Notes under the pieces: generated by a model
What the model was told of the DNA's origin: nothing
Database searches by the model: none
What the model saw: only the letters and a program-made list of their open reading frames with translations
Part shown: piece by piece, positions 6,385-28,859 of the stretch
How the letters are laid out: each line of letters begins with the position of its first letter
How positions within the stretch are numbered: the first letter of the stretch is position 1
Translations under genes and position numbers: made by a program
Origin: Spirochaetes bacterium ADurb.Bin218
GTDB taxonomy: Bacteria > Spirochaetota > UBA4802 > UBA5550
Direction of reading: 5' to 3'
NCBI GenBank assembly: GCA_002069965.1
Contig: MWCI01000016.1
Span: 1 to 57,502 of the forward strand
DNA length: 57,502 bases

Positions 6385-6627
6385 TTATTCCTTAACCATA
6401 CGGCCTGCTTTTTTGCCGCGGGAAGACTGCATCTGCATACGTCTCATCTTTTTGATTCTACGTCTTTCAGCTTCTTCCCTTTTGCGTTTCTTCTCTTCAC
6501 TTGGCTTTTCATAATATCTCCTTCTTTTCAACTCCTTAAAGATACCTTCAAAAGCCATTTTCTTTTTGAGATTTTTAAACGCTTTCTCGATGTCGCCGTT
6601 TACATCTACTTCCAAAGGGCTTGTCAT
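6385..6627 (-). CDS. rpsU: Ribosomal protein bS21
   Basis: The small basic protein bS21 of the 30S subunit, 80 residues. The N-terminus PLEVDVNGDIEKAFKNLKKK and FEGIFKELKRRRYYEKPSE are the conserved bS21 blocks; the C-terminal half is the usual Lys/Arg-rich helix (KKRKREEAERRR), with a slightly longer tail ending GRMVKE. The gene has its own terminator at 6336-6360. A stem-loop followed by a T run lies upstream at 6691-6717 on the same strand and could be a leader attenuator. Identification is secure. Confidence 0.95.
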   Translation of the reverse strand: MTSPLEVDVNGDIEKAFKNLKKKMAFEGIFKELKRRRYYEKPSEEKKRKREEAERRRIKKMRRMQMQSSRGKKAGRMVKE

Positions 6628-6690
6628 TAAATCACATCCTTTATTTTAAAATTTTAAAATAACTCTTAAATTCAGATGCTTTTTGTCAAG

Positions 6691-6717
6691 AAAAAAATAT
6701 GCCAAAGCTCTGGCATA
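6691..6717 (-). terminator. Terminator-like stem-loop in the rpsU leader
   Basis: On the minus strand a 7-bp stem (TATGCCA with TGGCATA, 6-base loop) is followed by seven T. The nearest minus-strand gene upstream is about 6 kb away, so it either stops antisense transcription of the MoxR operon or acts as an attenuator in a long rpsU leader. A TTGACA at about 6683-6689 just downstream could give a second, terminator-free start. Confidence 0.6.
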
Positions 6718-6719
6718 GA

Positions 6720-6733
6720 AAGAGCATGCTCTT
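6720..6733. promoter_or_regulatory. 14-base perfect palindrome between rpsU and the MoxR operon
   Basis: AAGAGCATGCTCTT is self-complementary over 14 bases and lies in the shared divergent promoter region, next to the terminator-like stem-loop. It could be an operator for either direction. No regulator is identified. Confidence 0.35.
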
Positions 6734-6823
6734 GCAAGGATGAAAATTATCTAAAAAATTTTATGGACATAAGCAAATAGTCAATATTAATGACCATAGG
6801 ATTTTGAATTTGCGAGGTGAAAA

Positions 6824-7981
6824 GTGAAAAAATCTGCATCAGAGATCACAGTTCGAGAAATGACAGAAATAGTAAAAAAATACATAAGAGGTTCTCACAA
6901 CCTTAATTTTGCTATTAAAATACTTGGACATCCTGGAGTTGGAAAATCTGCTGTTGTCAAAAAAATTGCAGAGGAAGAAAACTTTTACTTCATAGATACA
7001 AGGCTTGCCTTTAAAGAAAACGTTGACCTTGGTGGTTATCCTGTGCCAGATCACAATAATAAACAGATGATCTATTTTAGACCAAAATTTATCCCTCCAG
7101 AAAAAATCCCTGAGGGCTATGATGGAATTCTCTGGTTTTTAGATGAATCTAACAGAGCTCACCCCACTGTAATACAAACCCTATTTCAAATTATCACTGA
7201 AAAACGCTGTGGAGAACACCTATTGCCTGAAAAAACATCTATAATACTTGCAGGTAACTTAGGGGAAGAAGACGATACCACTATAACTGAGTTTGATGAC
7301 TCTGCTCTTGATGGCAGGCTTGCAATATTCCATCTAAAGCCCTCTGCTGAGGACTGGCTCTCATGGGCAGCGGACAATAACATACACCCCTCTGTGATAC
7401 AATATATCTCTACATTCCCTGAAAGACTGTGGGATGAAAAAAATGTTAATCCCAACCCGAGAGGCTGGCATCAGGTTTCCAGTGCCCTTCTCCATGGATA
7501 TAACCTGAAAAGCCATGAGGATCTTAAGAATTTTCTTCAAAATAAAAAGGACTCCACCCTTGAAAAACTTATATACTCCCTTGTTGGTAACGTCGCAGGA
7601 ACTGATTTCTTTATGCAGCTACTTTCCCCAAGGCTCTTAAGCTCTGAGGATATAGTAATGGGAAATGAAGACAAGCTCACTCTCTTAAAAGAGAGAAAAA
7701 TTCCAGCAGAAGATATTCTCTGGGCTTTAAATGGAACTATTGAAATACTGAATGAAAGGGCTTTGCTAAAATCAGGAAACTTTGACTCAGATGATTTACT
7801 AGTAATAGGCAATATTTTAAAATTCATAGGTTACTCAAGGGGCGATATCCGAATGGCCTACTTCTTCCTCCTTGTGAAAGAATGTGGGATCTTTTCCATT
7901 ATTCCTGAGGCTATAAAAAGAATAGAGGATGCTTCAATACAAAATGAGCTTAAATCAAGATATGGAGATCTCCTTGTCTAA
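6824..7981 (+). CDS. MoxR-type AAA+ ATPase
   Basis: A 385-residue AAA+ protein of the MoxR/RavA class. Walker A is GHPGVGKSA (about residues 35-43), Walker B is ILWFLDESNRA (about 104-114), followed by sensor-1 IILAGN and the LDGRLAIFHL block with the Arg expected to act across subunits. The C-terminal third is helical without known domains. MoxR proteins remodel or activate partners together with VWA-domain proteins; the next gene is such a protein and starts within the stop codon of this one (TAATG), so the two form a pair. Start is GTG with GAGGTG 5 bases upstream. The target is unknown. Confidence 0.9.
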   Translation: MKKSASEITVREMTEIVKKYIRGSHNLNFAIKILGHPGVGKSAVVKKIAEEENFYFIDTRLAFKENVDLGGYPVPDHNNKQMIYFRPKFIPPEKIPEGYDGILWFLDESNRAHPTVIQTLFQIITEKRCGEHLLPEKTSIILAGNLGEEDDTTITEFDDSALDGRLAIFHLKPSAEDWLSWAADNNIHPSVIQYISTFPERLWDEKNVNPNPRGWHQVSSALLHGYNLKSHEDLKNFLQNKKDSTLEKLIYSLVGNVAGTDFFMQLLSPRLLSSEDIVMGNEDKLTLLKERKIPAEDILWALNGTIEILNERALLKSGNFDSDDLLVIGNILKFIGYSRGDIRMAYFFLLVKECGIFSIIPEAIKRIEDASIQNELKSRYGDLLV

Positions 7982-9441
7982 TGGAAGAAAAAGCTCTCAC
8001 AAAGCTTGAAGCCATACTTTCATCTCTCTGGAAGATGAGTAGATTTGTCTCTTACTTTTATCAGGGAACTGAATTTTTCCCAGATAAAAATCTGCCTACT
8101 ATTGCAATTACAATATACCATTCTCGTTTAACGCTTTTTTTTAATCCAGAATTTATACTCAAACTTCCTGATGAGCAGATCATAGGACTCCTTGTCCACG
8201 AGATGCTGCACGTTGTTCTAAATCATAATCACAGAGGAAATGAGGATGGGGACATTTACCTTCAGAATGTTGCGCAGGATATGGTAATAAACTCATACAT
8301 AATAGAAAATAAAAAAACCTTCTTTTCTAAAAAAAGCCTTTATCTCCATGACACTCCAGAAATAAACCTCCCTGCTGGGCTTCCAACAATTCCTGATGAT
8401 TTTTTTAGTGAAACCAAAACACTTGACCCTACATGGGAAGATGTTTATAAATGGCTAAGATCAAAGCCTGCTGAGGAATTAAAAAAAATAAGAAATCAAT
8501 ATGAGCAATTTGGCATTGGAATAAAAATTGATAGCAATTCCTTTATAGACCAGTTGAGCAATTCTCTCAATTCCCTTGATCTATCCTATAACACTGCTCC
8601 TAAGGAAAAATTTACAAAAATAAAAGATATGGATGGCCTATTTTTTGAAAGAGAGGATGGTGAAACAATGCCAACTGGCGTTCATATTATAAACAGAAAA
8701 ACAGATCTCAATGTCATGGATTCAAAGATTAATCACTTTATGACAATTGCCGAAAGAGATGACTTTTGCAGAGAAGAAAGAATTTTTCAAGAAGTCTCAT
8801 CTCTGATTTCACAGCCTCAAAAAACAGATCTGACATGGCAGGAAAGACTAAAAAGCATAGTTGATCTAACTGCTCAATCAAATGAATGGGAGTATACAAG
8901 CCGTAAATTTAATAAAAGATATTTTGCACAAGGAATCTACTCCCCTGGAAGAACCTTTAAAGACAAAGAGGCCATAACAGTAGTTGTTGATGTCTCCGGT
9001 TCAATGGTTACAAACCCTTCTGATATTGAATCAGCCTTTGGTATAATCGAAAACCTTCTTAAAAAATTCAAGGTCTATCTTCTCTGCATTGATGAGACAA
9101 TCTTTGTCCCTGAAAAGAAAGGCGATCGCTTTGTTAAAACAGAAACTCTGTCAAAACCTTATCAGTATAAAAAAGGTGACTGGAAGTACATAAAAACAGG
9201 AAGCAGTGGCACAACCTATTTCTCTTCACTATTTAACAACTATATGACAAACCACAACGAACTTTTAATTATCATAACGGACGGCTATATATACGACATC
9301 GACAGACTCAAAAAATATCAAAACACTCTGTGGCTCATAAGCGAAAACAGAAGTGATCCCTTTACCCCACCTTTTGGAAAGGCGATAAAAATAACCACCC
9401 CAAAAAAAGAACGAAGGTTAAAATACAAAGGTGAACTTTAA
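7981..9441 (+). CDS. Metallopeptidase-like/VWA-like protein (DUF2201 type)
   Basis: This 486-residue protein joins two parts typical of the DUF2201 family. The N-terminal part has a zinc-peptidase motif LLVHEMLHVVLNHNHRG (HEMLH near residue 72). The C-terminal part is a VWA-like fold with an intact MIDAS: DVSGSM near residue 338, a Thr in SSGTTYFSS near 412 and ITDGY near 431. A long charged linker (about 190-300) separates them. It overlaps the MoxR gene by one base, and the 28-residue-repeat gene begins right after its stop. By analogy with other MoxR-VWA pairs, the ATPase may act on this protein or through it; no substrate is evident. The protein has no signal or membrane segment, so it is cytoplasmic. 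Confidence 0.88.
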   Translation: MEEKALTKLEAILSSLWKMSRFVSYFYQGTEFFPDKNLPTIAITIYHSRLTLFFNPEFILKLPDEQIIGLLVHEMLHVVLNHNHRGNEDGDIYLQNVAQDMVINSYIIENKKTFFSKKSLYLHDTPEINLPAGLPTIPDDFFSETKTLDPTWEDVYKWLRSKPAEELKKIRNQYEQFGIGIKIDSNSFIDQLSNSLNSLDLSYNTAPKEKFTKIKDMDGLFFEREDGETMPTGVHIINRKTDLNVMDSKINHFMTIAERDDFCREERIFQEVSSLISQPQKTDLTWQERLKSIVDLTAQSNEWEYTSRKFNKRYFAQGIYSPGRTFKDKEAITVVVDVSGSMVTNPSDIESAFGIIENLLKKFKVYLLCIDETIFVPEKKGDRFVKTETLSKPYQYKKGDWKYIKTGSSGTTYFSSLFNNYMTNHNELLIIITDGYIYDIDRLKKYQNTLWLISENRSDPFTPPFGKAIKITTPKKERRLKYKGEL

Positions 9442-10134
9442 ATGGATGAAAAAAAACTTTCTGCTATGGAAATATACTCCCATGGGAAAAACGATCCACG
9501 TATAAGAAGAGATTATATGGATGAATTACTATCCTCAAATGATGCTGAGGCAATTCATCTTGCAGGAAGATACTGGCCTGAATTTGACTTTCACAGAGGG
9601 CTCAAACGTCTGATGGAACTGTGCGATCTTGAATTTGTCCATAAATCTGGAATTTTCTGGAAACATTTTGATTTTGACAGAGGCCTTGATTTCTTTATAA
9701 AAAATAAATCCCCTGAATATATTTACAGATCTGGTAGATTCTGGTCTGGCTATGACTATGAAAAAGGGCTTGATGCGCTGGGTGAACTTAAAAGTGGCAG
9801 ATACATATATTATGCAGGGAAAGAATGGAGGGTTTTTAATTTTTCAAAGGGCCTTGAATATTTGTTTAAGACAAATGATGCTGAGTTTATATTCTATGCT
9901 GGTGCTCACTGGAAGATTTTTGATTTCAAGAGAGGTCTGCAATATCTCTTTAAATCACGAAACTGCGAATTCATCTTTAAGGCAGGAGCTATGTGGAAAG
10001 AATTTGATTATGAGGCAGGATTAAAAATTCTGGAATCTGAAATCTCTGCAGGAAAAGAATGGAGAGCTAAACTTTTTGAAAACAAAAAATGGAAAGAAAA
10101 TCTAAAAATCATCTGGGATAAGATGTGGGAGTAG
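9442..10134 (+). CDS. Protein of six 28-residue tandem repeats, third gene of the MoxR-VWA unit
   Basis: The 230 residues consist of a 32-residue N-terminal segment, six tandem units of exactly 28 residues (33-200) and a Trp/Lys-rich tail. In every unit an AG or SG pair, a Trp four residues later, an aromatic/Asp stretch (FDF, YDY, FNF) and an RGL/KGL/AGL triplet recur; Trp stands at 45, 73, 101, 129, 157 and 185. A seventh, shifted AGKEW occurs at 203-207. Predicted short helices with a Trp-aromatic core suggest a solenoid-like binding scaffold. I do not recognise the repeat as a named family. The ATG directly abuts the VWA gene, with AAAGGTG as binding site, so it belongs to that operon. 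Confidence 0.85.
   Translation: MDEKKLSAMEIYSHGKNDPRIRRDYMDELLSSNDAEAIHLAGRYWPEFDFHRGLKRLMELCDLEFVHKSGIFWKHFDFDRGLDFFIKNKSPEYIYRSGRFWSGYDYEKGLDALGELKSGRYIYYAGKEWRVFNFSKGLEYLFKTNDAEFIFYAGAHWKIFDFKRGLQYLFKSRNCEFIFKAGAMWKEFDYEAGLKILESEISAGKEWRAKLFENKKWKENLKIIWDKMWE
9538..10041 (+). repeat. Six in-frame 84-base coding repeats
   Basis: Six units of 84 bases encode the 28-residue repeats. Protein spacing is invariant, while the DNA copies have diverged, which indicates old duplications held by selection on the protein rather than a recent expansion. Confidence 0.85.
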
Positions 10135-14742: not shown

Positions 14743-15288
14743 CTATTCTCCTATCTTTGATGGTCTTTTATAATTTTTTGTTTTCGCAAGCATCTCAGGG
14801 TCAAACCTATCAGTTGTTTTTCTGATAAAGGCTCGTGCCTCGATATTATCATATCTATAACCCTGCAGATCCATCCTATCTATCATGTTTTTGTTTTCCA
14901 TGTCATAGCATCTTCCACATCTCTGACATGTGAGCATAAAAAGCTCCATTGTCTCATTAAGATCAGCTCTATCATCTGTTGCCAGTTCATATCTATCTGT
15001 CATTGTTATGGCCTTCTCAGGGCATACATCTGCGCACCTCCCACAATAAGTGCATCTTGAGCCATCATAAACCATAAGGCGTATTTCCTGGCATATATCT
15101 CTCACAAGTATTGTCCTTGCAGGGCAATGATTTGCACATCCTCCACAACCAATGCACTTTTCATGATCCCAGTAAGGTGCACCTCTAAAGTCTTTTGGTG
15201 CAGGTCTTGGCTCAAAGGGATACTTCAAAGTAACAACACCTGGTTTTGAAACCATAATCACCTGTTTTATTTTACTTAAAAGCCACAT
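14743..15288 (-). CDS. Hydrogenase polyferredoxin subunit (HycF/EchF/NuoI-like)
   Basis: A ferredoxin-like subunit with two complete [4Fe-4S] motifs, CIGCGGCANHCP and CTYCGRCADVCP, as in NuoI and HycF. A third partial set, CQRCGRC, lies near residue 125 and has no fourth Cys nearby. It connects the small subunit with the electron-input module. The ATG at 15300 lies directly at the preceding stop and its own sequence contains GGAGG; that GGAGG is correctly spaced for the next in-frame ATG at 15288, which I take as the start (181 residues). Confidence 0.9.
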   Translation of the reverse strand: MWLLSKIKQVIMVSKPGVVTLKYPFEPRPAPKDFRGAPYWDHEKCIGCGGCANHCPARTILVRDICQEIRLMVYDGSRCTYCGRCADVCPEKAITMTDRYELATDDRADLNETMELFMLTCQRCGRCYDMENKNMIDRMDLQGYRYDNIEARAFIRKTTDRFDPEMLAKTKNYKRPSKIGE

Positions 15289-15300
15289 ATAAACCTCCAT

Positions 15301-16200
15301 TTATATCCCATATACTGAGAGACCTACTGCACCCAGAGAAAGGATTATGAGCACAGAATAATACTTAACAGCCTGATCTATTCTAAGCCTCGGGTTGGTT
15401 GCACCAACAAGAGCTATAACCACATAGACAAGAGCAATTAGCACAAGCTGCACCGCAATGTTGACGATATATATCCCTGTATTAAAGAATGGGACAAATA
15501 CCATAACAAAGAGGGCTGCATAAAACATCTGCTTTAGCATCATAGCATATTTAAAGAGAGCATAATTTGGACCACTATACTCAATAAAAGGTCCCTCCAA
15601 TATCTCCTGCTCTGCCTCCGCTATATCAAAGGGCTGCTTGCCAACAAAGGCTTGCAAAGCCATGAGATAGAGAACAAGCATTAACACCACAGCCCAGGAA
15701 TATCCTGTATTCATTACGCTAAATATTGTTGAGTCAATAGCAAGGCTCTTTACCTTAACTGCGCCAACAAAGAAGGTCATTGCCAGAACAGGCTCAACCA
15801 TAATCATTGTGACCATTTCCCTGCTTGCACCCATCATGGCGTATGTATTTCTGCTGGAAAGAGCTCCAAGCAAAATAGAGACTCCTCCCATTGTAAGCAG
15901 ATATATAACAGTTATTACATCAGCATAATTGGTCAAAAAATTTGATTTATACCCAAAGGGAATAAAGCAAATTACAGAAACGATAGCTGCAAAGGAAAAC
16001 AGTGGAGCAATTTTAAAAGCCCAATTGTCCACAACAAGATTCTCTTTGCCAAGGAGCTTAATCAAATCATAATATGGCTGAACAATTGGTGGCCCCTGCC
16101 TTGACTGAACCTTTGCTGTTAGCTTTCGCACTATACCTTCAAAAAGTGGTGCAAAAGCAAGGAAAACAATTATATTGACAAGTATATAGATCATATCCAT
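15301..16200 (-). CDS. Hydrogenase membrane subunit (HycD/EchB/NuoH-like)
   Basis: A 299-residue membrane protein with about eight hydrophobic helices, corresponding to NuoH of complex I. Conserved loops are KVQSRQGPPIVQPYYDLIKLLGKEN (first loop) and QPFDIAEAEQEILEGP in the middle, plus SRNTYAMMGASREM. This subunit anchors the hydrogenase and forms the start of the proton (or Na) channel at the interface with the antiporter-like subunit. It lies between the large-subunit and ferredoxin genes with gaps of 12 and 0 bases. Confidence 0.92.
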   Translation of the reverse strand: MDMIYILVNIIVFLAFAPLFEGIVRKLTAKVQSRQGPPIVQPYYDLIKLLGKENLVVDNWAFKIAPLFSFAAIVSVICFIPFGYKSNFLTNYADVITVIYLLTMGGVSILLGALSSRNTYAMMGASREMVTMIMVEPVLAMTFFVGAVKVKSLAIDSTIFSVMNTGYSWAVVLMLVLYLMALQAFVGKQPFDIAEAEQEILEGPFIEYSGPNYALFKYAMMLKQMFYAALFVMVFVPFFNTGIYIVNIAVQLVLIALVYVVIALVGATNPRLRIDQAVKYYSVLIILSLGAVGLSVYGI

Positions 16201-16212
16201 AGTTTACCTTCC

Positions 16213-17883
16213 TTACCTGTTGCCTCTTGATATAAATTCTATCTCAGACTTAGAGAGAACTCTCTTTTGTCCTGATCTTATATTAACAACCTCAACCCTG
16301 TCTGTGCAGGAAAAGCATGGGTCAAGACTACCCACAATTATTGGAAAATCAGCAAACTGATCCCCAAGCAACATCTCTGGCACAGCCTGAAGATTTGGAT
16401 ACGTCGGGGCACGGACTCTCCATCTGTCGGGTCTGTTTTCCTCCCCTGTTATGACAAAGTGCACAGACTCACCACGTGGAGCCTCCACAACTGATATACC
16501 ATGTTTGAGCGCTGGTATCTCTTCATCAAGGGTAGTCAAAAGCTCTCCCTTTGGCATTTTATCAAGTATCTGACGGATAAGGCTCAAGGATTCATAGATC
16601 TCTAAAACACGGACCACCAGCGTCCCCCATACGTCACAGGTATCAACTACAGGGACGTTAAAATGGAGGTCGCTGTAGGCCGCATAAGGGTGATCTCTTC
16701 TGACATCGATATCAATGCCGCGAGCTCTTGCAACAGGACCAACAAGACTCCATTTAATTGCATCTTCTTTTGAAAGATAGCCGACTCCCTTTGTCCTCTT
16801 GTGCAAAGCTGTATCACCAATAATTGATTTATGTATTATTTTTACTTCCTCTTCTACCTTTGAACAGACTTTCAAAATGTCATCTGCAATCTCAGGAGTT
16901 ATATCCCTCCTGACCCCGCCTACTATGATCATCCCATAGGTCTTTCTGTTTCCTGTAATCCTTTCGCTAAGCCACATTATGTGCTCTCTGACTCGCCAGG
17001 ACTGCATAAAAACTGTATCAAAGCCTATGAGGTGACCTGCAACACCAAGCCACAGAAGATGCGAATGGAGTCTCTCTATTTCAAGGAGAAGGCTTCTTAT
17101 ATATTTTGCTCTCTCAGGGACAGGAATTCCCCCTGCCATTTCAACTGCCTGAGAGTATGCTGTCGCATGAACTGAACCACATATACCGCAAATTCTTTCT
17201 GCAATAAATGGTATTTCATTATAGCTTACCTGAGATTCGCAGAGCTTTTCTATACCTCTGTGAGTCATAAATCCGCGATAATCACAACCCTTTATGGTCT
17301 CACCATCTACATATACTGCAAAATGCTCAGGCTCATGCAAAGCTGTGTGGAATGGCCCCACTGGGATTACAGAACAGCCTTCTGGGCATTCGTCAAGCTG
17401 GTATGCAACATCCTCTGCAGAAGGAGGAACTAAATTATATGGGACTTCCTTCCTAAGGGGATATATGTCAGAGGGCCAATCATCTGCAACCACAAGTCTT
17501 TTTGGTTTTGGATGACCTTCAAATTTTAATCCAAGCAAATCCTGATATTCCCTTTCTGACCAGCCTGCCCCTGGAATATCTGGTGTAATTGAAGGCATCA
17601 CAGGATTACTTGCAGGCACAGCTGCCCTCAAATGAACTATGAAATTATCTCTATCAAAGCCAAAGGCGTGTATCATGCCGATATTGCCATCGCGAGCAAT
17701 ATTATCATAGCCTATGCCAACCAAATACCTTCCACCTTGAGCTACTACCTCTCGTGCTATTTCCCGGACACTATTAGCTTTTATGTCCACAAAAAGCCTT
17801 GTAGGTAGAGGGATCTCATGCCCTGTTATATTCTGGCCAAATTTATCTTTCAACACTTTTAAAAGTTTTTCCAATGAGTTCAT
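16213..17883 (-). CDS. Group 4 [NiFe] hydrogenase large subunit (HycE-like, NuoC/NuoD fusion)
   Basis: The 556-residue catalytic subunit fuses a NuoC-like N-terminal part (about 1-150, with GWSEREYQDLLGLKFEGHP) to the NuoD/HycE-like part. All four Ni ligands are present: C232 and C235 in RICGICGSVH, and C523 and C526 in DPCFSCTDR. The 27 residues after R529 form a C-terminal tail of the kind removed by a maturation endopeptidase once Ni is inserted, and such a protease is encoded two genes upstream. The fusion and the motifs are like formate-hydrogenlyase type hydrogenases (HycE). It should therefore produce or take up H2. A GAGAGG binding site precedes the ATG. Confidence 0.95.
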   Translation of the reverse strand: MNSLEKLLKVLKDKFGQNITGHEIPLPTRLFVDIKANSVREIAREVVAQGGRYLVGIGYDNIARDGNIGMIHAFGFDRDNFIVHLRAAVPASNPVMPSITPDIPGAGWSEREYQDLLGLKFEGHPKPKRLVVADDWPSDIYPLRKEVPYNLVPPSAEDVAYQLDECPEGCSVIPVGPFHTALHEPEHFAVYVDGETIKGCDYRGFMTHRGIEKLCESQVSYNEIPFIAERICGICGSVHATAYSQAVEMAGGIPVPERAKYIRSLLLEIERLHSHLLWLGVAGHLIGFDTVFMQSWRVREHIMWLSERITGNRKTYGMIIVGGVRRDITPEIADDILKVCSKVEEEVKIIHKSIIGDTALHKRTKGVGYLSKEDAIKWSLVGPVARARGIDIDVRRDHPYAAYSDLHFNVPVVDTCDVWGTLVVRVLEIYESLSLIRQILDKMPKGELLTTLDEEIPALKHGISVVEAPRGESVHFVITGEENRPDRWRVRAPTYPNLQAVPEMLLGDQFADFPIIVGSLDPCFSCTDRVEVVNIRSGQKRVLSKSEIEFISRGNR

Positions 17884-17912
17884 GTCTAACCTCTCACCTT
17901 ATTTTAGTTTCA

Positions 17913-19787
17913 TCACTTTTTAACATTCCCCCCTGTCCACCACAGGAAGTCTTTCAATGATGAGAACATACTCTTATCTGGATATCTATTTAGATTATTG
18001 AGTTCTGCATATCCGCATAGCCATGTAGGCACTTCCCTTTCCTTAGAATCGCCAGAGTCTCGCAGCATTTTTGCCAGAGCAAGTGCAATTAGCACTACTA
18101 CAAGAATTACTGCAGGAACTGCTGCAGATGAAACTATGCCTGCAACACCTGGAACGCTAAAGGCTACACCATTCATCGAAGAAAATATATGTTCACTTAA
18201 CTTTGTATTTTCAAAGGCTGCTGTAAGAGTTGATCTGCTTGCATTGTTAAACACTGTGATTATTACATTGTAATATACAAAGGGCAGCAATCCCTGAACT
18301 ATACACAGAAGTGTGAGTATTACCTTTGGAATTAACATCATAGCAGGGACTTCTTTTATATCCTTGCCAATAGTCCATTCTGTTCCAGTTGATGTAAAAC
18401 TCATACCAAAAAATTTAACATAACAGGATAGGGTTACTGCACTTGTAAAAAGTGCTATTATACCAAATATTGCCAGAAACATTACTTCACTTCCAGCAAG
18501 GACTGTTGATGATATAATTGTCCACTTGCTTGCAAATCCGCTAAAAGGTGGAACCCCTGCTATTGAGAGAGAAGCAATTCCTGCAATGACAGCAGATACT
18601 GGCATAAACTTAATAAGCCCGCCAAGTTTATTCAAATCCTTTGTCCCGGTTGTATACAATATACTTCCGCTAACAAGGAAGAGCAGTCCCTTAAACACTG
18701 CATGATTTATAACATGGTATAGAGCTCCTACTATTACAACAAGAGCAAGAAGCTTGAGGTAATCGCTCTCACTGTTTAAAAGCACAAGGGCTGAACCTGA
18801 TGCAAAGATTATATATCCAAGCTGTCCTATGGAGCTATAGGCAAGAAGTCTCTTTGCATCGCTTTGTTTCATTGACTGAACTGTTCCAACAAAAAGTGTT
18901 ACAACTCCAAAGGAAGCAATTACAACACCCCAGAAAAATCCGTCAAAATGAACGTTTTCTCCATGAGGTACCATCCAGAAGAATGTGCGCATTATGCCAT
19001 AGATACCAGTTTTAAGCATAACTCCAGAAAGCAGTGCACTTATTGGAGATGGAGCTATGGAGTGAGCATCTGGCAACCATAGTTGTCCAAAGGGGAACAT
19101 ACCAGCCTTAAATCCAAAGCCTACAAGGATCATTCCATAGACGACATATATAAAAGCCGGGGAGCTATTGCCAAGCTTTAATGTCACAGAGTGTAGAGAA
19201 TCCCCCATAGAGGAACCGCTTACAAAGAATGTTGCACCTACTATCAGAGCCCATGCAATTTCCATTAAAACAAGATATTTGTTTGCACCATAGACAACCC
19301 CCTTTTCCCTGAACTCAAACTTGATCAAGAAATAAGAGGCAATTGTCATAAGCTGCCAGCTGATGGTAAATCCTGTTGTAAGATCATCAACTGTTAAAAG
19401 AGCTATCATGCCAAGTATAAATATTGGCAGATTAAGGTAATATCCTCTGAGGCTATAATCATGATAATGATCCATATACTCAATTGAGTAAAAGGAACTC
19501 ATGACAGCCATGAAAGAAACAATTGCGATAAAAAAAGCGGAAAAGCTGTCCACAAGAAAATAAATACCAATAGGCCCCATGGTAATTAATACAGAATCTT
19601 GTGGAACAGCTTTAAAAATCACCGCAAAACTTATATGAAGGAGAAATATTGCAGCAACTGTTACCATTAAAAAGTTTATCCAGCCAGCAAGTTTTCTTCT
19701 TGAACCTGCAACAACAGAGGATATAACTGCTGAGGCAAGAAGTATAGCCATGGCGGTAAACAAGTTTCCGTAAATGTTCACGTTCAT
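17913..19787 (-). CDS. Antiporter-like membrane subunit of the hydrogenase (HyfB/HycC/NuoL-like)
   Basis: A 624-residue membrane protein with about 14-16 hydrophobic segments, of the proton-translocating NuoL/M/N/MrpA family. Recognisable blocks are MGPIGIYFLVDSFSAFF near residue 90, FGFKAGMFPFGQLWLPDAH near 225 (conserved Lys), YSSIGQLGYI near 315 and HVINHAVFKGLLFL near 355. It should couple H2 chemistry to ion movement. Only one antiporter-like subunit is present in the cluster. Its start overlaps the stop of the maturation-protease gene by four bases (ATGA). Confidence 0.92.
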   Translation of the reverse strand: MNVNIYGNLFTAMAILLASAVISSVVAGSRRKLAGWINFLMVTVAAIFLLHISFAVIFKAVPQDSVLITMGPIGIYFLVDSFSAFFIAIVSFMAVMSSFYSIEYMDHYHDYSLRGYYLNLPIFILGMIALLTVDDLTTGFTISWQLMTIASYFLIKFEFREKGVVYGANKYLVLMEIAWALIVGATFFVSGSSMGDSLHSVTLKLGNSSPAFIYVVYGMILVGFGFKAGMFPFGQLWLPDAHSIAPSPISALLSGVMLKTGIYGIMRTFFWMVPHGENVHFDGFFWGVVIASFGVVTLFVGTVQSMKQSDAKRLLAYSSIGQLGYIIFASGSALVLLNSESDYLKLLALVVIVGALYHVINHAVFKGLLFLVSGSILYTTGTKDLNKLGGLIKFMPVSAVIAGIASLSIAGVPPFSGFASKWTIISSTVLAGSEVMFLAIFGIIALFTSAVTLSCYVKFFGMSFTSTGTEWTIGKDIKEVPAMMLIPKVILTLLCIVQGLLPFVYYNVIITVFNNASRSTLTAAFENTKLSEHIFSSMNGVAFSVPGVAGIVSSAAVPAVILVVVLIALALAKMLRDSGDSKEREVPTWLCGYAELNNLNRYPDKSMFSSLKDFLWWTGGNVKK

Positions 19788-20284
19788 TTAGAAACTCCTT
19801 TATTACAATTTAAAGCATCTATTATCAAATTTATCAACATATCAGCGCTTTCCCTTACAGGAGTTGATAGCTCAGCGCCAAAATCAACATTATCAACAAC
19901 AACTCCGAGCAAATAGGTTTCCTTATTGTGCTCTCTAAAAATACTGCCAGACATCTTAAGAGCTAATTTGTGAGTTGAGAGAGTTCCTCCAAGCTCATCA
20001 AATTCATCTTCAAGTTTTCCAAATACTACTGAACCTACTTCCGCATCTGTTTTCACCGCATCTATAATCAAGATGTTTTTAAAATCAGATTCCGCAATTT
20101 TGAAAACATAGGCTTCAATAATATCCTCAACATTAAAGATAGCGCTTTTGTTATCTGCTATTTTTTTAACAGACTCAATAATGTAGAGACCAACTGCATC
20201 ATCACTTTTGAGGTAATTCCCCATACCAACAAGGCAGCAGTTATCTCTTACCACTTCTCTTATGTCAGACAGAATTGAGCTCAT
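19784..20284 (-). CDS. Hydrogenase maturation endopeptidase (HycI/HyaD family)
   Basis: A 166-residue protein of the Ni-dependent hydrogenase maturation protease family, which trims the C-terminal tail of the large subunit after metal insertion. The N-terminal GMGNYLKSDDAVGLYI is the family signature (GxGNxLxxDDxxG), with ILIIDAVKTDAEVGSV and LSTHKLALKM providing the other Ni-sensing positions (Asp and His). The gene overlaps both neighbours (1 and 4 bases) and its substrate is very likely the large subunit encoded at 16213-17883. Confidence 0.9.
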   Translation of the reverse strand: MSSILSDIREVVRDNCCLVGMGNYLKSDDAVGLYIIESVKKIADNKSAIFNVEDIIEAYVFKIAESDFKNILIIDAVKTDAEVGSVVFGKLEDEFDELGGTLSTHKLALKMSGSIFREHNKETYLLGVVVDNVDFGAELSTPVRESADMLINLIIDALNCNKGVSK

Positions 20285-21126
20285 CAGATTTCTTCACCCA
20301 AAGTTTTAATCTGTTTATAAGTATAAACAGGACCATCAGTGCACACAAGGGTTCTACCTATTGCACAATGCTGACACTTGCCTATCCCGCATTTCATGTG
20401 TCGCTCAAGAGTTGAAATTATACAGTCATCCTTAAGTCCTCTCTTCATGAGGTCATTTATAACTGAATTAAACATAACAGGAGGACCACAGACAAAAGCT
20501 ACAGTATTTTCCACAGGAATATTAGCCTTGTCTATGAGGCTGTTGACAAAGCCAGTATGTCCTGTCCATCCATCTGTTGGCTGATCCACTGTTACATAAC
20601 ACTCAAACCCAGGGATCTTAAGCCATTCCTCAATGTTATACTGATACATTAAATCCTTTGGAGTTCTTGCTCCAAGTAAAACAATAATCCTTCCAAACTC
20701 ATTTCTATGCTGCAGAGCATGGACAATGGAGGAGCGCAAAGGTATAAGTCCAATACCACCTGCAACATATATTATGTTTTTACCCTTTATCTCTTCAAAG
20801 GGGAATCCATTGCCAAAAGGTCCTCTTATACCAACTTTGTCTCCAACTTGAAGAGCATGCAAAGCGTCAGTTACCTTACCCACTCTCCTTACAGAGAGAT
20901 GAAATCTGTCATTTTCGGGGCTTGGCGGAAGTGATATTGCAGATTCACCAGCACCAAAGACTGTAAGCATAACAAACTGACCTGATTTTATCTTAAAGTT
21001 TTTTTCCACTTCTGGGTTATCAAACTTAAGATAAAAAGTCTTTACATCCTGAATCTCATCCTTAATTTCTTCTATGGTTGCTATTTCAGGAACAGTTACT
21101 ATTTTGCCATCTACTATATTATTCAT
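20284..21126 (-). CDS. FAD/NAD(P)H-binding electron-transfer subunit (HydG/AsrB-like)
   Basis: A ferredoxin-reductase type protein like the gamma subunit of archaeal sulfhydrogenase (HydG) and AsrB. An FAD-binding barrel (about residues 1-100; FVMLTVFGAGESAISL) is followed by an NAD(P)-binding fold (IIYVAGGIGLIPLRSS, VAFVCGPPVM) and a C-terminal [2Fe-2S] motif CGIGKCQHCAIG...VC. It would exchange electrons between NAD(P)H and the hydrogenase module. GTG, ATG and ATG starts lie at 21135, 21132 and 21126; AGGTGA is best spaced for the last, which I use. It directly follows the HydB-like gene, its usual partner. Confidence 0.88.
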   Translation of the reverse strand: MNNIVDGKIVTVPEIATIEEIKDEIQDVKTFYLKFDNPEVEKNFKIKSGQFVMLTVFGAGESAISLPPSPENDRFHLSVRRVGKVTDALHALQVGDKVGIRGPFGNGFPFEEIKGKNIIYVAGGIGLIPLRSSIVHALQHRNEFGRIIVLLGARTPKDLMYQYNIEEWLKIPGFECYVTVDQPTDGWTGHTGFVNSLIDKANIPVENTVAFVCGPPVMFNSVINDLMKRGLKDDCIISTLERHMKCGIGKCQHCAIGRTLVCTDGPVYTYKQIKTLGEEI

Positions 21127-21135
21127 AGCCATCAC

Positions 21136-22191
21136 CTACTCTGTTATTTCTCTTCTGATGTATGTGACAACATTTGGCAGACCTATATCACCAGGGCAAA
21201 CCCACTGACATCTGCCGCAACCCACACATCCTGGCCTCAAATATTTCTTTGATTGAGAATAAGAAAGCTTGCAGAAAAATCTTTTGTTTCTTCTATCCTC
21301 AACAGGATGGCGTGGATTGTGATCACCTGCCATCTTTGTATATCCCTCAAAGGAACAGGAATCCCATGTCCTTAACCTATCTGTTGTGCCATCAAATCTA
21401 TTGTGATCCTCAACATTAAAGCAGGAGCATGTAGGGCATACAAAGGTGCAGGCTCCACATTCAAAGCACTGCTTGCCTATATACTCCCATACATCTTCCT
21501 TTATAAAACCAGTAGTAATTCTATTCATTACTCTGGAAATCCATGCCTTATTATCTGTAGCAATGCTTTCAAAAAGCGATATGGACTTATCATTTGCTTT
21601 CTTCTTCATCTCAGCATAAGATGGATCTGCAGATTTCAGCCCGAGCCTCTGGACTAATTCCTTACCCTTATCACTTCCAGCCTCCACAAGATAATAATCT
21701 CCAAGGAGTGTAAGGTTTAGATCATATCCCTCATCTGCAAAGGGACCACTATCTGTGCACACACAAAAGCATTGCTTAAAAGGAGCTATACAGTTTTGAG
21801 AAACAATAAACATCCTCTTTCTGTGCTCCCTGTAAATCTCATCAACAAACTCCTGCCCCAAAAAGAATCTATCAAGGACAATAAGCCCTGTGAGATCACA
21901 TGGTCTTATGCCAAAAATAGCCTTACTTCTGTTATCAAGAATTGCCTCAATCTCAGCTTTTTTTGCACTGCGATCGTATTTATATTTCATTATCCTCTCA
22001 ATCTGAGGAAAAACAACATGCTTTGGAGGAATTGCAGGGATCTCTGCAGAAAGACTGATCTCAGAGGAATCATTCACTCTGTCAAAGAAAACCTGCCCTG
22101 TCCCTTTATCTACAACAGGTCCAAAGAGCTCATAGTTTTTTGCAAGCTCCTCGGCTATTTTCATAACATTTTCTTTTTCTATAAGATACAT
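21136..22191 (-). CDS. Iron-sulfur electron-transfer subunit (HydB/AsrA-like)
   Basis: The 351-residue protein matches the beta subunit of sulfhydrogenase (HydB) and anaerobic sulfite reductase A. The N-terminal half has FGIRPCDLTGLIVLDRFF and a CIAPFKQCFCVCTD cysteine group; the C-terminal half has two [4Fe-4S] motifs, CFECGACTFVCPTC and CVGCGRCQWVCP. It is expected to bridge the flavin subunit and the rest of the complex. It starts 3 bases after the molybdopterin-subunit stop. Identification is by motif order and gene pairing with the HydG-like gene. Confidence 0.88.
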   Translation of the reverse strand: MYLIEKENVMKIAEELAKNYELFGPVVDKGTGQVFFDRVNDSSEISLSAEIPAIPPKHVVFPQIERIMKYKYDRSAKKAEIEAILDNRSKAIFGIRPCDLTGLIVLDRFFLGQEFVDEIYREHRKRMFIVSQNCIAPFKQCFCVCTDSGPFADEGYDLNLTLLGDYYLVEAGSDKGKELVQRLGLKSADPSYAEMKKKANDKSISLFESIATDNKAWISRVMNRITTGFIKEDVWEYIGKQCFECGACTFVCPTCSCFNVEDHNRFDGTTDRLRTWDSCSFEGYTKMAGDHNPRHPVEDRRNKRFFCKLSYSQSKKYLRPGCVGCGRCQWVCPGDIGLPNVVTYIRREITE

Positions 22192-22194
22192 AAG

Positions 22195-24204
22195 CTATAC
22201 CCTCTCTATCCTAACTGGAATAGTTGCATCTAACCCCATGTCACTTTTATCACTATGACCAAGGAGAAAATCTGTAATCATCTCTTTGATAAAATAAGGG
22301 ACGTAAGCTGTTCCAGGCTTAACATCTTCTGAAATCTTAACGCTTACATTCATGGAACCCTTATCTGAAGAAATCTTCACAGTCCAGTGCTCTCTCACCT
22401 GAAGCTTCTTTGCATCTTCGCTGTTTATCTCAATGAATCCCTTAGGATAGACAAGAAGAGTTGCATTGTATTCTCTCTTAGGAATATAGCTCTTCTTCAT
22501 GATATTATTTTGATGCCAGAAATACTCCCCTCTTCCAGGTATAAGTAAAAATGGGAAGGCTTCACTTACATTAACAGCAGGGAATGTTCCAGAAACCTTT
22601 GCAAAGGAGAGAGCTGTTCCTGACTTGAGCAAAAAGCTTTTGCATCCATTGGGATATTCACTGTTGCATGGCCACTGAATTCCTGTGGAGTTTATTAATT
22701 TATCATAAGAAAGTCCTGAGTATGATGGAGTGAGAGAAGCTATTTCTTTGAAAACATCCTCAGAGGAATTATAGCTCCATTTAACCCCAGACTTTGCAGC
22801 AATCATCGAAAAGAGTTCCCTTACACTAAGTACACCATTAAAGGCTTGAATTCTCTTTTGAGAGATCTGAACTCTTCTCTCTGTGTTTGTATATGTCCCA
22901 TCATCCTCAATCAGTGCAGCAATAGGGAATACAACATCTGCATGATTTACAAAGGGATTGTCATAGGAGCCAAAATATACTACAAAATCAAGGTTTGCAA
23001 TTTCCTTTTCATATTTAACAATTCCCTCGTCATGTTCTGCTACAAAGAGTACTTTGAGATCCTTATTTTTATTTTCAAGTAACTGGTAAACATCATTGCC
23101 AACTTCTGCTGGCAATTGCACCTGCCATGCCTTTTCAAATTTAGATCTCACTGCACCATCACTATAGCTTTGAAATCCTGTAAGCAAATCAGGAGCAACA
23201 CCCATATCGTATCCCCCCTGAAGATTTGCAAGGCCAGTGATAGAATTAAGACCGCAATTTTCCTTTCCAACTTTCCCTGCAATTAAAAATAGATTAGCAA
23301 TATAGCTCACAGTATCTTCGTCAGCTCCAGAAATGCCAGTAGACCAGAAAGCCATAGCAGATTCACTTCCACAGAGTTCCTTAGCCACAGAGTCAATATC
23401 ATCCAGAGAAATTCCTGTAGAACCAATTGCCTCTGCCATGTTAATTGCTGCAAGAGAAGATGCAAAGTCATTGAAACCTGCCATAGAAGATGCAGAATTT
23501 TTATCCATGTAGCCCTTTTCAATTGCAACTTTTGCGATGAGTGCTATTGTGAGCTTCAATGTCCCAGGTCTGCATTGCAGATGCAAATTAGAAAGTTTCG
23601 CCATCTGAGTTTTTCTACTTCCCAAAGTTACAACCTTTGTTCCTGCCATCTGCGCCTTGTGGATCTCACTGCCTATTATGGGATTTATCCGTGTGAGATC
23701 AGAGCCTATGACCATTATAAATTTTGTCTTTTCTATTTGTTCAAGGGAGCCAGTCATCGCCGGAAATCCGGTTACCTTAGATAAAACATTAAGGCTTCCC
23801 CTATGCCCTGACTCTGAATCAAGTGTGATATTATTTGTTTTAAAAACAGAACGTGCCAGTTTCATGAAGAGATAGTTATTCTCATTGGACCACCTTGGCG
23901 CTCCTAAAAAGCCAATAGCCTTTGCTGAGCTGCCCATGTATGGTGAGAGCTTTTCCATCATGAAGTTAACTGCCTCTTCATAAGTCACATTCTTAAAAGA
24001 GCCATCAACTTTAATCATGGGAGAGGATATCCTCTGATCTGTCATTAACCACTCATGGATATGCCACCCCCTGACACAAAGCCGACCCTTACTAACCGGA
24101 TGATTGCGAGATGAGTATACTCCCGTAATCTTGCCATCAGAAATCCTGAGGTAGTTTCCACATCCGGTTCCACAGAAATTACATACTCCAGACTTATAAT
24201 CCAT
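22195..24204 (-). CDS. Molybdopterin oxidoreductase-family subunit (formate dehydrogenase/NuoG-like) lacking the Mo-ligating Cys/Sec
   Basis: The 669-residue protein has the standard order of the formate dehydrogenase/NuoG superfamily: N-terminal [4Fe-4S] motif with C8, C11, C15 and C43 (CNFCGTGC...GRLC), molybdopterin domains, and a C-terminal dinucleotide-binding barrel (from about 555: FPFLLIPGRGEYFWHQNN). The segment where formate dehydrogenases carry Cys or selenocysteine reads NITLDSESGHRGSLNV (residues 125-140), with no Cys and no in-frame TGA. Direct formate oxidation is therefore doubtful; an electron-relay or altered catalytic role is possible. It is first in the hydrogenase unit, with AGGGG 6 bases before the ATG, after a strong promoter and a structured leader. 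Confidence 0.85.
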   Translation of the reverse strand: MDYKSGVCNFCGTGCGNYLRISDGKITGVYSSRNHPVSKGRLCVRGWHIHEWLMTDQRISSPMIKVDGSFKNVTYEEAVNFMMEKLSPYMGSSAKAIGFLGAPRWSNENNYLFMKLARSVFKTNNITLDSESGHRGSLNVLSKVTGFPAMTGSLEQIEKTKFIMVIGSDLTRINPIIGSEIHKAQMAGTKVVTLGSRKTQMAKLSNLHLQCRPGTLKLTIALIAKVAIEKGYMDKNSASSMAGFNDFASSLAAINMAEAIGSTGISLDDIDSVAKELCGSESAMAFWSTGISGADEDTVSYIANLFLIAGKVGKENCGLNSITGLANLQGGYDMGVAPDLLTGFQSYSDGAVRSKFEKAWQVQLPAEVGNDVYQLLENKNKDLKVLFVAEHDEGIVKYEKEIANLDFVVYFGSYDNPFVNHADVVFPIAALIEDDGTYTNTERRVQISQKRIQAFNGVLSVRELFSMIAAKSGVKWSYNSSEDVFKEIASLTPSYSGLSYDKLINSTGIQWPCNSEYPNGCKSFLLKSGTALSFAKVSGTFPAVNVSEAFPFLLIPGRGEYFWHQNNIMKKSYIPKREYNATLLVYPKGFIEINSEDAKKLQVREHWTVKISSDKGSMNVSVKISEDVKPGTAYVPYFIKEMITDFLLGHSDKSDMGLDATIPVRIERV

Positions 24205-24394: not shown

Positions 24395-27280
24395 TCAGGA
24401 GGTTTTGCTAAGGATCCACTGCACGGCAAATTGCACCAATTCAGAGGAAGAGTCGATATTAAGCCTTGTTTTGATCTTTTCACGGTAATTTTCAACAGTT
24501 TTTACACTGATATGCAGTTTATCTGCAATATGTTTATTCCCAAGCCCATGACCAATGAGCTGAAAAACCTCAAACTCTCTATCTGTAAGGGAATCCACCA
24601 GAGCTGTTTTTTCATCTTTAGAGGGGGATGAGAGCTTATCAAGAAGTCTCTCTTTGAGATTATCGCTCATATACTGACGACCATCCAGCACTGTTCTGAT
24701 GGCATTTACAATTACAGCAGGAGATTCATCTTTCATAACATACCCACGGGCTCCAGCTCTAATTGATCTCTCTGCATAAATAGACTCCTCATAGATTGAA
24801 AGCACAAGTATTGGCAAAGTGGGATAGCGCTCTTTACATGCCTTTATAAGTTCAAGACCACCTGTGCCACTTAAGGATATATCCGTAACCATAATCTCTG
24901 GTCTTAAGCGACCAATTAACTTTAAAGCCTCCTCGGCATTTCCTGTTTCTCCAACAACCTCAAGATCATTTTCTATCTCAAGGATTTGCCTAAGTCCCTG
25001 ACGCACCACAGGATGGGAATCCACAAGCAAAACTCTATATTTTGCCTTGCCTCTTATTTTTTTCTTTGAAGGCCACTTCGCAACATCTTCCTGTAGGCTT
25101 TCACCTGTTAACTTAAAACGGCAAGAAACAATGGCTCCACCTGCTGGATTGCTGCGTATTTCACTGGATGCACCCATAAGCCATGATCTGTATTTGAGCA
25201 TACTCTGAAAGAGAGAATTTTTTTCTTTATCTATGGAATCAAAACTCAGCCCATCATCAATGATTTCAATAACTCCAAGGTTGCCATCTTTTGATGATGC
25301 TATAATTATATTCTTTGCCCTGTTAACTTCGATCGAATTATAGATAGATTCTCGGATGATATAATAAAGATTGGATAGCTCAAGTTTGCCTGATAGATTG
25401 AGATTTTTATCCCATCGTATAAGAATATTTACATTATGATTTTCCCCAATCTCATCTTTAAGATTCTCTACAGCAGTCAAAAGTCCACCATCACCAATTT
25501 CAACAGGGCAGAGCTCCTTTGCTATTTCCCGAGTTTTATTGACAGCCATATTTACCATATTGATAATTTCATCAACATCAGAAATCACATCAGGCATGGC
25601 ATCTCCAATTTTTAATTTAAGGAGTTCCCCTCTGAATGTAATACCTGCGAGATGCTGAGCTAACCTATCATGGAGATCCTGCCCAATCTTTAATCTCTCA
25701 GCTGCATTAGTCTCCATCACAGCCTTTTCAAGACGCTTTCGCTCTGTAATATCAATACCAACAAAGAATATAAAATCAACCTGACCATTAACCTTTAAGA
25801 CAGGCTTTCCATGCCATTCCACCATAATCTCTTCGCCATTTCGTGTGAGCAAAGTCGTCTCTACAACTACAACCTTTTTTTTATTAACTATTTTCAAAAA
25901 ATCCTGACGCTGCAATTGACGATCACTTTCTGAAAAGAGAAGATCTATATAGTTTTTACCAACAACCTCACTTAAAGAATATCCAAGGCTAAAAAGCATT
26001 GCCCTGTTCATTGAGAGAATATTTCCCGATGAGTTTATAGCTACATAAAAGGCAGGATTTATCTCATCTAAGTTTTTTAAAAAATCCTTGCCTTTTCTAA
26101 TTTTTTCTATGGCACGCTGTTCCTGAGTGACATCTCTTTCAATAATGGAAGCACCTATTATATCACCAAGGGAATCCCGTATAGGAACAATCTTGAGAGT
26201 CAAATACAGAACCTCCCCATTTTTCGACAAACCCTCTGTCTCATAGTGATCTATCTTTTCTCCATGCCTTATGCGCTCCAGCAGATAAGGGAAAAAATCA
26301 TGTTGATGAGGTGGGATTAACTTTGAATAGAGGGAGCCTATAATCTCATCGGCTCGATATCCAAAAATTCTTTCTGCGCTGTGATTCCAGCTTACGATCT
26401 CTCCACTCAATGTTAAACCTACAACAGCATCATCGGAATCTTCTATAAGCAGAGAAATAAGCCTCTTTAGCTCTGTGCTATCGTGTTTTTCTCTAACATC
26501 CCTAAAAAGACTTAATATTGCATAGTCATTGTTATATTCAACAAGCCTGCTTGATACCTCAACAGGGACAATCTCTCCTTCTGCATTTTTTATTGTTGTC
26601 TCTATAATCTTTCGATCTATAGAAGAAAAGCTCATAATGTTAGAGGCTATATCTGTTATTCGCTGATAATTAAATAGAGTTAAAACAGATCGACCAATAA
26701 GATCCTCATCCTTCAGACCAAAGTATTCACAAGCTCTCTCATTTACCTCAAGAATCATCCCTTCAAGATCGTGTATAATTACAATGTCGTTTATGCTGTT
26801 AAAAAGAGACTGGTAATTTATCTCCTTTTCTCTAAGTCTCTCACTTTTTTCTGACAGAAGTTCAGCAAGCTTTTTGTTAGCCTCTTTAAGGGAATCCTCT
26901 GCCTTTTTGATTCTAATCATTGCTTTAAGCTCAGCAACAAGCTCAACCTCATCAATAGGTTTTGTAACAAAGGCATCAGCTCCAGATTCAAGAGCAGAGG
27001 CACGCAACTTTGAGGTTGTATTTGCAGCAGTGATAAGGATTACAGGAATAAATGAAGTTTCAGGATTATTTTTAATACGAACACAAAAATCATTGCCATT
27101 CATCTCTGGCATATAATAATCAACAAGCACAACATCAGGTAAATTATTATTGATCTCCTCAAGAGCCTTGATTGGAGAATCAAAAGTAACAACCTCTGCC
27201 TCAGGGAAAAAATCTCCAAGCAAAGCCTCCATGGCAATAAGGTTATCAGCATTATCATCAATAACAAAAATTCTAAGCAT
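24395..27280 (-). CDS. Receiver-PAS-PAS-PAS-histidine kinase-receiver-LuxR fusion regulator
   Basis: A 961-residue soluble protein that holds a whole signalling chain: receiver (1-125; Asp in VVLVDYYMP), a coiled linker, three PAS domains (about 155-270, 285-400, 410-530), a NarX-type HisKA_3 with QDLHDRLAQHL near 550, an ATPase domain (about 640-740), a second receiver (about 765-885; MVTDISLSGTGG) and a NarL/LuxR DNA-binding domain (LTDREFEVFQLIGHG, KTVENYREKIKTRL). The ATPase G-boxes are unusual: after DDGLSFD the expected GxGL stretch reads NSLFQSMLKYRSWLMGA, so ATP binding may be altered. It ends just upstream of the hydrogenase promoter region and is a candidate direct regulator. It overlaps the preceding gene by 8 bases. 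Confidence 0.88.
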   Translation of the reverse strand: MLRIFVIDDNADNLIAMEALLGDFFPEAEVVTFDSPIKALEEINNNLPDVVLVDYYMPEMNGNDFCVRIKNNPETSFIPVILITAANTTSKLRASALESGADAFVTKPIDEVELVAELKAMIRIKKAEDSLKEANKKLAELLSEKSERLREKEINYQSLFNSINDIVIIHDLEGMILEVNERACEYFGLKDEDLIGRSVLTLFNYQRITDIASNIMSFSSIDRKIIETTIKNAEGEIVPVEVSSRLVEYNNDYAILSLFRDVREKHDSTELKRLISLLIEDSDDAVVGLTLSGEIVSWNHSAERIFGYRADEIIGSLYSKLIPPHQHDFFPYLLERIRHGEKIDHYETEGLSKNGEVLYLTLKIVPIRDSLGDIIGASIIERDVTQEQRAIEKIRKGKDFLKNLDEINPAFYVAINSSGNILSMNRAMLFSLGYSLSEVVGKNYIDLLFSESDRQLQRQDFLKIVNKKKVVVVETTLLTRNGEEIMVEWHGKPVLKVNGQVDFIFFVGIDITERKRLEKAVMETNAAERLKIGQDLHDRLAQHLAGITFRGELLKLKIGDAMPDVISDVDEIINMVNMAVNKTREIAKELCPVEIGDGGLLTAVENLKDEIGENHNVNILIRWDKNLNLSGKLELSNLYYIIRESIYNSIEVNRAKNIIIASSKDGNLGVIEIIDDGLSFDSIDKEKNSLFQSMLKYRSWLMGASSEIRSNPAGGAIVSCRFKLTGESLQEDVAKWPSKKKIRGKAKYRVLLVDSHPVVRQGLRQILEIENDLEVVGETGNAEEALKLIGRLRPEIMVTDISLSGTGGLELIKACKERYPTLPILVLSIYEESIYAERSIRAGARGYVMKDESPAVIVNAIRTVLDGRQYMSDNLKERLLDKLSSPSKDEKTALVDSLTDREFEVFQLIGHGLGNKHIADKLHISVKTVENYREKIKTRLNIDSSSELVQFAVQWILSKTS

Positions 27281-28358: not shown

Positions 28359-28364
28359 TTTACA

Positions 28365-28859
28365 TCAACCTTCAAGTTTTTCAATTGTCTTTTTGATTAT
28401 ATAGATTGTATTGTAAAAAACGCTTATTCCTCCAGTCCATCTTTCTTTTATAACACCATTTGATATTGTATCCACTGTCTCTTTTAGTTCCTTTATTCTT
28501 TTGTCCAAGGAGTTGGCAATTGAAAGGAGTTTTTCTTTGCCACGGGATTTAACAAGTCCGGGGATAATTTGAGATATGGCATTGGCAGATAATAAAATTT
28601 CCCTGAAAGCTTTTTTTAATTCATCATCCAGATCTTTTATAATATGCTCAATTATTACAAAGCGGACAATTTTATAGCCAGCCTGCACCTGAGCAGAATC
28701 AGAATGATCCACAGAATCAGGATATAGCTTGCAATAGACCTCACCAAGGCTAATCATAGAATCAATTGAAAAATCAAAATCGCCATTTAATTTCACCAGA
28801 GCCTCTCTAAAGCCCTCCGGGGTTATTCTCTCGTTCAAGATATCTGCAATTTTATTCAT
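28365..28859 (-). CDS. Uncharacterised helical protein in a kinase operon
   Basis: The 164 residues show no signal, no membrane segment and no motif that I recognise. The sequence is predicted almost entirely helical, with amphipathic stretches such as IIEHIIKDLDDELKKAFREIL and LLSIANSLDKRIKELKETVDTI. It overlaps the sensor-kinase gene by 8 bases and precedes the hybrid kinase, so it is co-translated with signalling proteins. A role as phosphotransfer or kinase-binding adaptor is possible, but no conserved HPt His motif is visible. Coding status is supported by both overlaps and by codon use. Confidence 0.72.
   Translation of the reverse strand: MNKIADILNERITPEGFREALVKLNGDFDFSIDSMISLGEVYCKLYPDSVDHSDSAQVQAGYKIVRFVIIEHIIKDLDDELKKAFREILLSANAISQIIPGLVKSRGKEKLLSIANSLDKRIKELKETVDTISNGVIKERWTGGISVFYNTIYIIKKTIEKLEG

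Follow-up and report, generated by a model that had tools for sequence, protein, structure and literature searches.

Organization of the three-gene locus

The window analyzed here is the whole of contig MWCI01000016.1 from Spirochaetes bacterium ADurb.Bin218 (G000:C16, 57,502 bases), and within it we examined three plus-strand genes that encode a MoxR-type AAA+ ATPase, a protein with a DUF2201 zincin-like domain and a VWA domain (the VWA protein), and a protein of 28-residue repeats that we call REP. The MoxR and VWA genes overlap by one base (CTAATGG) and the VWA and REP genes abut with a 0-base gap at the junction TTTAAATGG, as a first-pass annotation of the DNA had described. On the basis of the overlap, the gap length, and the synteny presented below, the three genes are probably co-transcribed. 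The coordinates of the genes and their motifs are collected in Table 1.

Table 1. Features of the MoxR-VWA-REP locus, numbered from the first base of the window.
Feature	Position	Strand	Details
Divergent intergenic region rpsU (-) / trio (+), presumed promoter region	6628..6823		196 bp
Ribosome-binding site of the MoxR gene	6814-6819		GAGGTG, from the sequence
MoxR-type AAA+ ATPase, ring motor	6824..7981	+	385 aa, GTG start
Walker A GHPGVGKS, residues 35-42	6926..6949	+	G35, P37, G38, G40, K41, S42 invariant in 18 orthologs
Walker B WFLDE, residues 104-108	7133..7147	+	invariant in 18 orthologs
DUF2201 zincin-like N-terminal domain and C-terminal VWA domain, motor partner	7981..9441	+	486 aa, ATG start
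HEMLH zinc-site motif, residues 73-77	8197..8211	+	H73, E74, H77 invariant in 20 orthologs
MIDAS DVSGS, residues 337-341	8989..9003	+	completed by T412, D434
REP, predicted alpha-solenoid, proposed client adaptor	9442..10134	+	230 aa, ATG start
Six consecutive exact 28-residue repeats of REP, residues 35-202	9544..10047	+	from alignment and AF2

The earlier description of the first gene product as an intact MoxR ATPase held up. Besides the Walker motifs, the sensor-1 residue N145 and R165 (in DGRL) are invariant in the 18 orthologs; the protein carries the Walker A, Walker B, sensor 1, and arginine finger features of the MoxR clade and, as read from these motifs, is an intact MoxR-type ATPase. 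The segment FIDTRLAFKENVDLGGYPVPD, which follows Walker A, fits the helix-2 insert, judging by sequence alone. In Pfam the protein scored 22.2 bits against AAA_5 (cut-off 22), with bpMoxR below its cut-off, and it matched PHROG 1297 ("ATPase") with E 6e-57; a sequence search for a solved MoxR structure found none.

The second protein had been called DUF2201-like with both HEMLH and a full metal ion-dependent adhesion site (MIDAS), and we find the same. It matches Pfam DUF2201_N (PF13203) with E 4.9e-13 and 49.8 bits against a cut-off of 23.2; H82 and H84, which follow HEMLH, and the MIDAS residues D337, S339, S341, T412, and D434 are also invariant in the 20 orthologs. The PF13203 match and the HExxH motif place it in the DUF2201 class, and it has the full MIDAS and C-terminal VWA fold of a VWA co-chaperone. 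Its AlphaFold2 (AF2) model is of moderate quality (predicted local distance difference test, pLDDT, 70). VWA structures were the top Foldseek matches (E 5e-3) and the best PDB match was NorD in the NorQD complex (9qhe_G), with Spartan-type proteases and other zincins lower among the matches; because the E values are ∼5e-3 and worse and the TM-scores are low, these matches support the fold class only. The protein terminates with its own VWA domain rather than with a C-terminal effector domain. Among titles and abstracts of the open-access literature we found no functional study of such a MoxR/DUF2201 system: at that level, the papers naming DUF2201 concern coral genomics and a Lactobacillus compound, the terms MoxR, acyl-CoA dehydrogenase, and von Willebrand come together in a paper on an erythromycin producer, and none of these looks like a functional study of it.

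The repeats of the third protein, recognized in the first-pass annotation, amount to six exact units with the consensus xEyIyxAGxxWKxFDyxrGxxxLxxxxx. The AF2 model (pLDDT 94.8) consists of paired helices throughout with the same 28-residue period, and REP is thus predicted to be an alpha-solenoid. It has no family match in Pfam or PADLOC, and a Foldseek search of the PDB gave no match at E ≤ 0.001 (TM ≤ 0.4); it would represent an undescribed solenoid family. A relationship to ferredoxin or RNA polymerase was rejected, since the PHROG (E 7.7e-4) and NCBIfam (E 0.035) matches span ∼20 residues and are attributed to chance, and a NucT match in the PDB (E 9e-4) was likewise regarded as chance.

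Conservation and distribution of the trio

REP had been proposed to be a variable recognition part, and the alignment argues otherwise. The number of repeats is constant, and the same repeat compared between species shows a mean of 50% identity whereas different repeats inside one protein show 36%, so the individual repeats keep distinct, conserved sequences. For three pairs of close species, the ratio of nonsynonymous to synonymous substitution rates (dN/dS) of REP came to 0.13, 0.09, and 0.11, similar to those of its partners; in a fourth pair it was not computable because dS was saturated. Mean pairwise identities were 0.46 for REP, 0.48 for the VWA protein, and 0.61 for MoxR, and the identity matrices correlated at 0.91 to 0.94. 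All three genes are under purifying selection with their motifs intact.

Presence and absence were scored in 59 genomes (the window's own and its relatives), with a wider sample of 393 genomes from the phylum. REP was found in 25 of the 59, and these same genomes have the VWA ortholog. The MoxR ortholog is present in all but one of the 25 (24 genomes); it was not seen in G044, in which the contig with REP and VWA stops at 3.3 kb. Within the wider sample REP is confined to one order of Spirochaetota (25/393), and its named matches are uncultured metagenome-assembled genomes (MAGs), nearly all titled Spirochaetes. All 18 relatives in which the three genes could be called share the strand and gene order of the window trio, and in most relatives the junctions overlap or are <60 bases apart (the MoxR-VWA step of locus L039 is 391 bases). 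This linkage is far beyond chance, and the adjacency of the MoxR and VWA genes is that of MoxR-VWA enzyme maturases. The suggestion that a repeat profile would track neighboring MoxR and DUF2201 genes was thus borne out within the order: REP is not found mostly alone or beside unrelated genes, and the MoxR, zincin-VWA, and alpha-solenoid genes form one conserved, co-inherited unit. Genes of kilobase size are inserted within the trio at L035, L036, and L047, with a fourth insertion in G035 (contig C411); we rejected these as components, the first two being PutA and a chemotaxis protein by Pfam and the others not being conserved. At three loci of family f5 (L048, L049, and L045), a gene for cytochrome c552 (NrfA-type) adjoins the trio upstream of MoxR.

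Pairs of MoxR and DUF2201 genes without REP are present in distant spirochaetes and in phages, so REP is a third part, specific to the order, that joins a pair of wider distribution. In these pairs (PHROG 1297 with PHROG 1314 in phages), the two core proteins of the trio have sequence homologs encoded near one another, but REP is lacking and the homologs are very distant, with hidden Markov model E values of about 1e-9 to 1e-29. In the distant genome G058, VWA and MoxR are represented only by remote homologs; at L123:6753-12778 its DUF2201 and MoxR genes are followed by one for a 1154-aa protein without a Pfam match that looks helical-repeat-like by eye, and a profile comparison gave no relation of this protein to REP. 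The DUF2201/VWA homolog of cyanophage S-TIM5 (L221:4959-6107) is annotated as "HNH endonuclease", as is PHROG 1314; the label is probably a misannotation, because the protein matches the zincin-VWA profile and adjoins a MoxR-like ATPase.

MoxR-VWA pairs had also been brought up as possible cores of conflict systems, and a defence function in which REP is the variable recognition part would have a precedent in the MoxR-vWA ternary conflict systems (PMC7159879), which share with the trio a MoxR, a vWA, and a third conserved protein. The three-part architecture and the patchy distribution inside the order fit such a function. The third protein is unrelated, however: the ternary systems use VMAP, iSTAND, FtsH, or a beta-propeller, whereas REP has no Pfam match and is a predicted alpha-solenoid. 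Moreover, the repeats are constant, the dN/dS of ∼0.1 runs counter to the diversification of those systems, the neighbors of the trio are metabolic, and we found no effector domain, no PADLOC match, and no plasmid or phage copy. We reject a conflict or defence role as very improbable.

Association with acyl-CoA dehydrogenases

Clustering of the neighborhoods revealed genes for acyl-CoA dehydrogenases (ACADs) of ∼570 aa, mostly as a tandem pair, divergent from the trio. An adjacent ACAD is present in 11 trio genomes (G002, G004, G005, G007, G011, G016, G019, G020, G027, G035, and G036) that span four families (f1, f2, f4, and f5), and in eight of these a TetR gene lies between the two gene sets; in G013 an ACAD lies within ∼4 kb of the trio. 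Most other trio genomes, that of the window among them (contig C27), encode the ACADs on a contig different from that of the trio. Counted genome-wide, two ACAD copies are found in 24 of the 25 trio genomes as compared to one of the 21 remaining genomes of the order (Fisher p 7.6e-11). The single exception among the latter is G032. One of its contigs starts with the 29 codons at the 5' end of MoxR, beside a cytochrome c552 gene, and the same gene flanks the trio in the sister species; the trio of G032 fell into an assembly gap. With G032 reassigned, the pair is present in 25/26 trio genomes and 0/20 others. As a separate observation, locus L131 (G008:C270) has the TetR gene and one ACAD with a glycosyltransferase in the trio's place, a natural case of an ACAD without the trio.

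The association could mean only that both gene sets mark one metabolic niche, with adjacency arising by chance or shared regulation. Consistent with this idea, all of the genomes are incomplete MAGs, and a control consisting of another long ACAD subfamily also correlated with the trio (19/25 trio genomes versus 6/21 others, p 0.003). The ACAD pair correlates far more tightly than this control, however, its gain and loss coincide repeatedly with those of the trio, and the divergent adjacency recurs across four families. On an RpoB tree of 42 genomes the trio changed eight times and the pair seven times, and the Pagel test gave a likelihood ratio (LR) of 38.2 (p 1e-7, with G032 counted as trio-less) for the pair as compared to 11.6 (p 0.02) for the control. 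Total ACADs (PF00441) are high in many trio-less genomes (18 in G014, 25 in G017, and 25 in G028), and the link is thus not just one of beta-oxidation capacity. We consider a mere correlation of lifestyle quite improbable. The trio and the ACAD pair co-occur strongly across genomes, often in a divergent TetR-linked locus.

Surroundings of the trio in the window

Immediately upstream of the trio, rpsU (ribosomal protein S21; 6385-6627) is divergently oriented on the minus strand, and hence the trio starts after the intergenic region between them. The next gene downstream, for a FadH/BaiCD-type oxidoreductase, begins at 10310, 175 bp past REP. Neither this gene nor recO, corC, or ackA was seen near the trio in the relatives' loci that were fetched. 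An Rfam search of 5-12.7 kb of the window yielded no match, and a scan for promoters and terminators at the trio gave signals not clearly above chance. Farther along the window are a minus-strand cluster (14743-24204) of complex-I/group-4 hydrogenase-type subunits, iron-sulfur proteins, and a molybdopterin oxidoreductase that resembles formate hydrogenlyase; beside it, histidine kinases and response regulators with PAS, GAF, HAMP, and Cache domains (24395-38594); and a dcw-type cell-wall cluster with Mur ligases and MraW methylase (49721-56347, minus strand). Elsewhere in the same genome, on contig C27 (L130:4413-5818), a GntP permease is split into two adjacent open reading frames (169 and 294 aa) by a frameshift or an assembly error.

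Proposed function of the trio

Inheritance of the trio almost only with the ACAD pair suggests a dedicated enzyme-activating machine and not a defence system. Our preferred reading, which we hold tentatively, is that the trio is an ATP-driven remodelling machine of the MoxR-VWA type, with the ACAD pair or a complex formed by them as its client. The first-pass annotation had left the target of the machine unknown; the ACAD pair now provides a candidate, with a client role suggested by the statistical link. By analogy to NorQD, CbbQO, and RavA-ViaA, the trio would mature, activate, or control the quality of these flavoenzymes. The MoxR ring would engage the VWA protein, as NorQ does NorD via a finger in the pore, while REP, as a fixed adaptor, would dock the client. 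By pulling on or twisting the VWA protein at the expense of ATP, the machine could then open the flavoenzyme so that its cofactor is loaded, the enzyme is assembled or repaired, or an inhibitor is released. The TetR encoded between the divergent gene sets in eight trio genomes probably co-regulates the trio and the ACADs.

In the mechanism proposed for NorQD, NorQ twists and stretches NorD and so inserts metal into nitric oxide reductase (PMC13036017); the trio likewise pairs a MoxR AAA+ motor with a VWA partner bearing a MIDAS, for which NorD is the best fold match. Given the low Foldseek TM-scores, only the VWA core is comparable; furthermore, the NorQD client is a metal-dependent membrane enzyme, and the described complex has no alpha-solenoid third protein. 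In Escherichia coli, the MoxR and VWA pair RavA-ViaA acts on a flavoenzyme subunit, contacting the flavoprotein FrdA via the VWA domain (PMC10585395). In contrast to the VWA protein of the trio, ViaA has a helical VAN domain rather than a zincin at its N terminus, and no alpha-solenoid partner has been described for it. CbbQ-CbbO, a Rubisco activase, is a MoxR-VWA pair that repairs a dedicated enzyme (PMC13036017 and general knowledge), as proposed here for the ACADs; the client is different.

Several observations weigh against an ACAD client. ACADs require only flavin adenine dinucleotide and usually fold with general chaperones. Their genes do not adjoin the trio in the window's genome (other contig) or in half of the others, and G039 (69% complete) is the only trio genome without the pair, with no ACAD found. 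Outside the order, 23 genomes have members of the ACAD subfamily but no trio, and within it trio-less G006, G008, and G017 each have a single one. The two copies per genome belong to four paralog groups overall, so that the "pair" is not one orthologous pair; the ACADs are thus not universally trio-dependent. The weaker but real correlation of the control ACAD indicates a lifestyle component in the signal, and a strict independent-pairs test with five usable pairs gave four in agreement and none in disagreement (p 0.125). Finally, the conserved HExxH of the VWA protein suits a protease equally.

The invariance of this motif makes a serious rival of an ATP-dependent protease in which MoxR unfolds, REP selects, and the zincin domain cuts, with the ACADs or a regulator as turnover substrates. 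Conservation of H73, E74, H77, and the following histidines across the 20 orthologs, the Pfam description of DUF2201_N as a "putative metallopeptidase", and the proteases and zincins among the fold matches are consistent with this role, but the fold-match scores are weak, the literature searched gives no peptidase activity for DUF2201, and the cited MoxR-VWA systems remodel rather than degrade; we judge proteolysis to be unlikely. Similarly improbable is a single co-regulated pathway that includes both the machine and the ACADs but in which the client is another enzyme, such as an electron-transfer partner or a membrane complex. The TetR-linked locus shared by the trio and the ACADs in part of the order would agree with such an arrangement, as would the action of RavA-ViaA-like precedents on respiratory complexes (PMC10585395), whereas the loci read, which cover part of each genome, showed no further neighbor conserved across families.

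Returning to the remodelling of ACADs, the fullest form of that proposal, a three-component AAA+ machine, not described before, in which a MoxR ring, a zincin-VWA lever, and an alpha-solenoid adaptor serve to activate or repair the paired enzymes, is somewhat doubtful. MoxR-VWA pairs are widespread, few have a known client, and those studied mostly serve metal or respiratory enzymes. The trio, whose conserved third protein belongs to an undescribed solenoid family and whose candidate client has statistical support, offers a concrete, testable case, reached via the phyletic profiles of uncultured bacteria. We know of no other AAA+ activase for fatty-acid beta-oxidation; if the proposal is true, the trio would be the first, analogous to Rubisco activase, and its confirmation would extend AAA+ remodelling to acyl-CoA metabolism.

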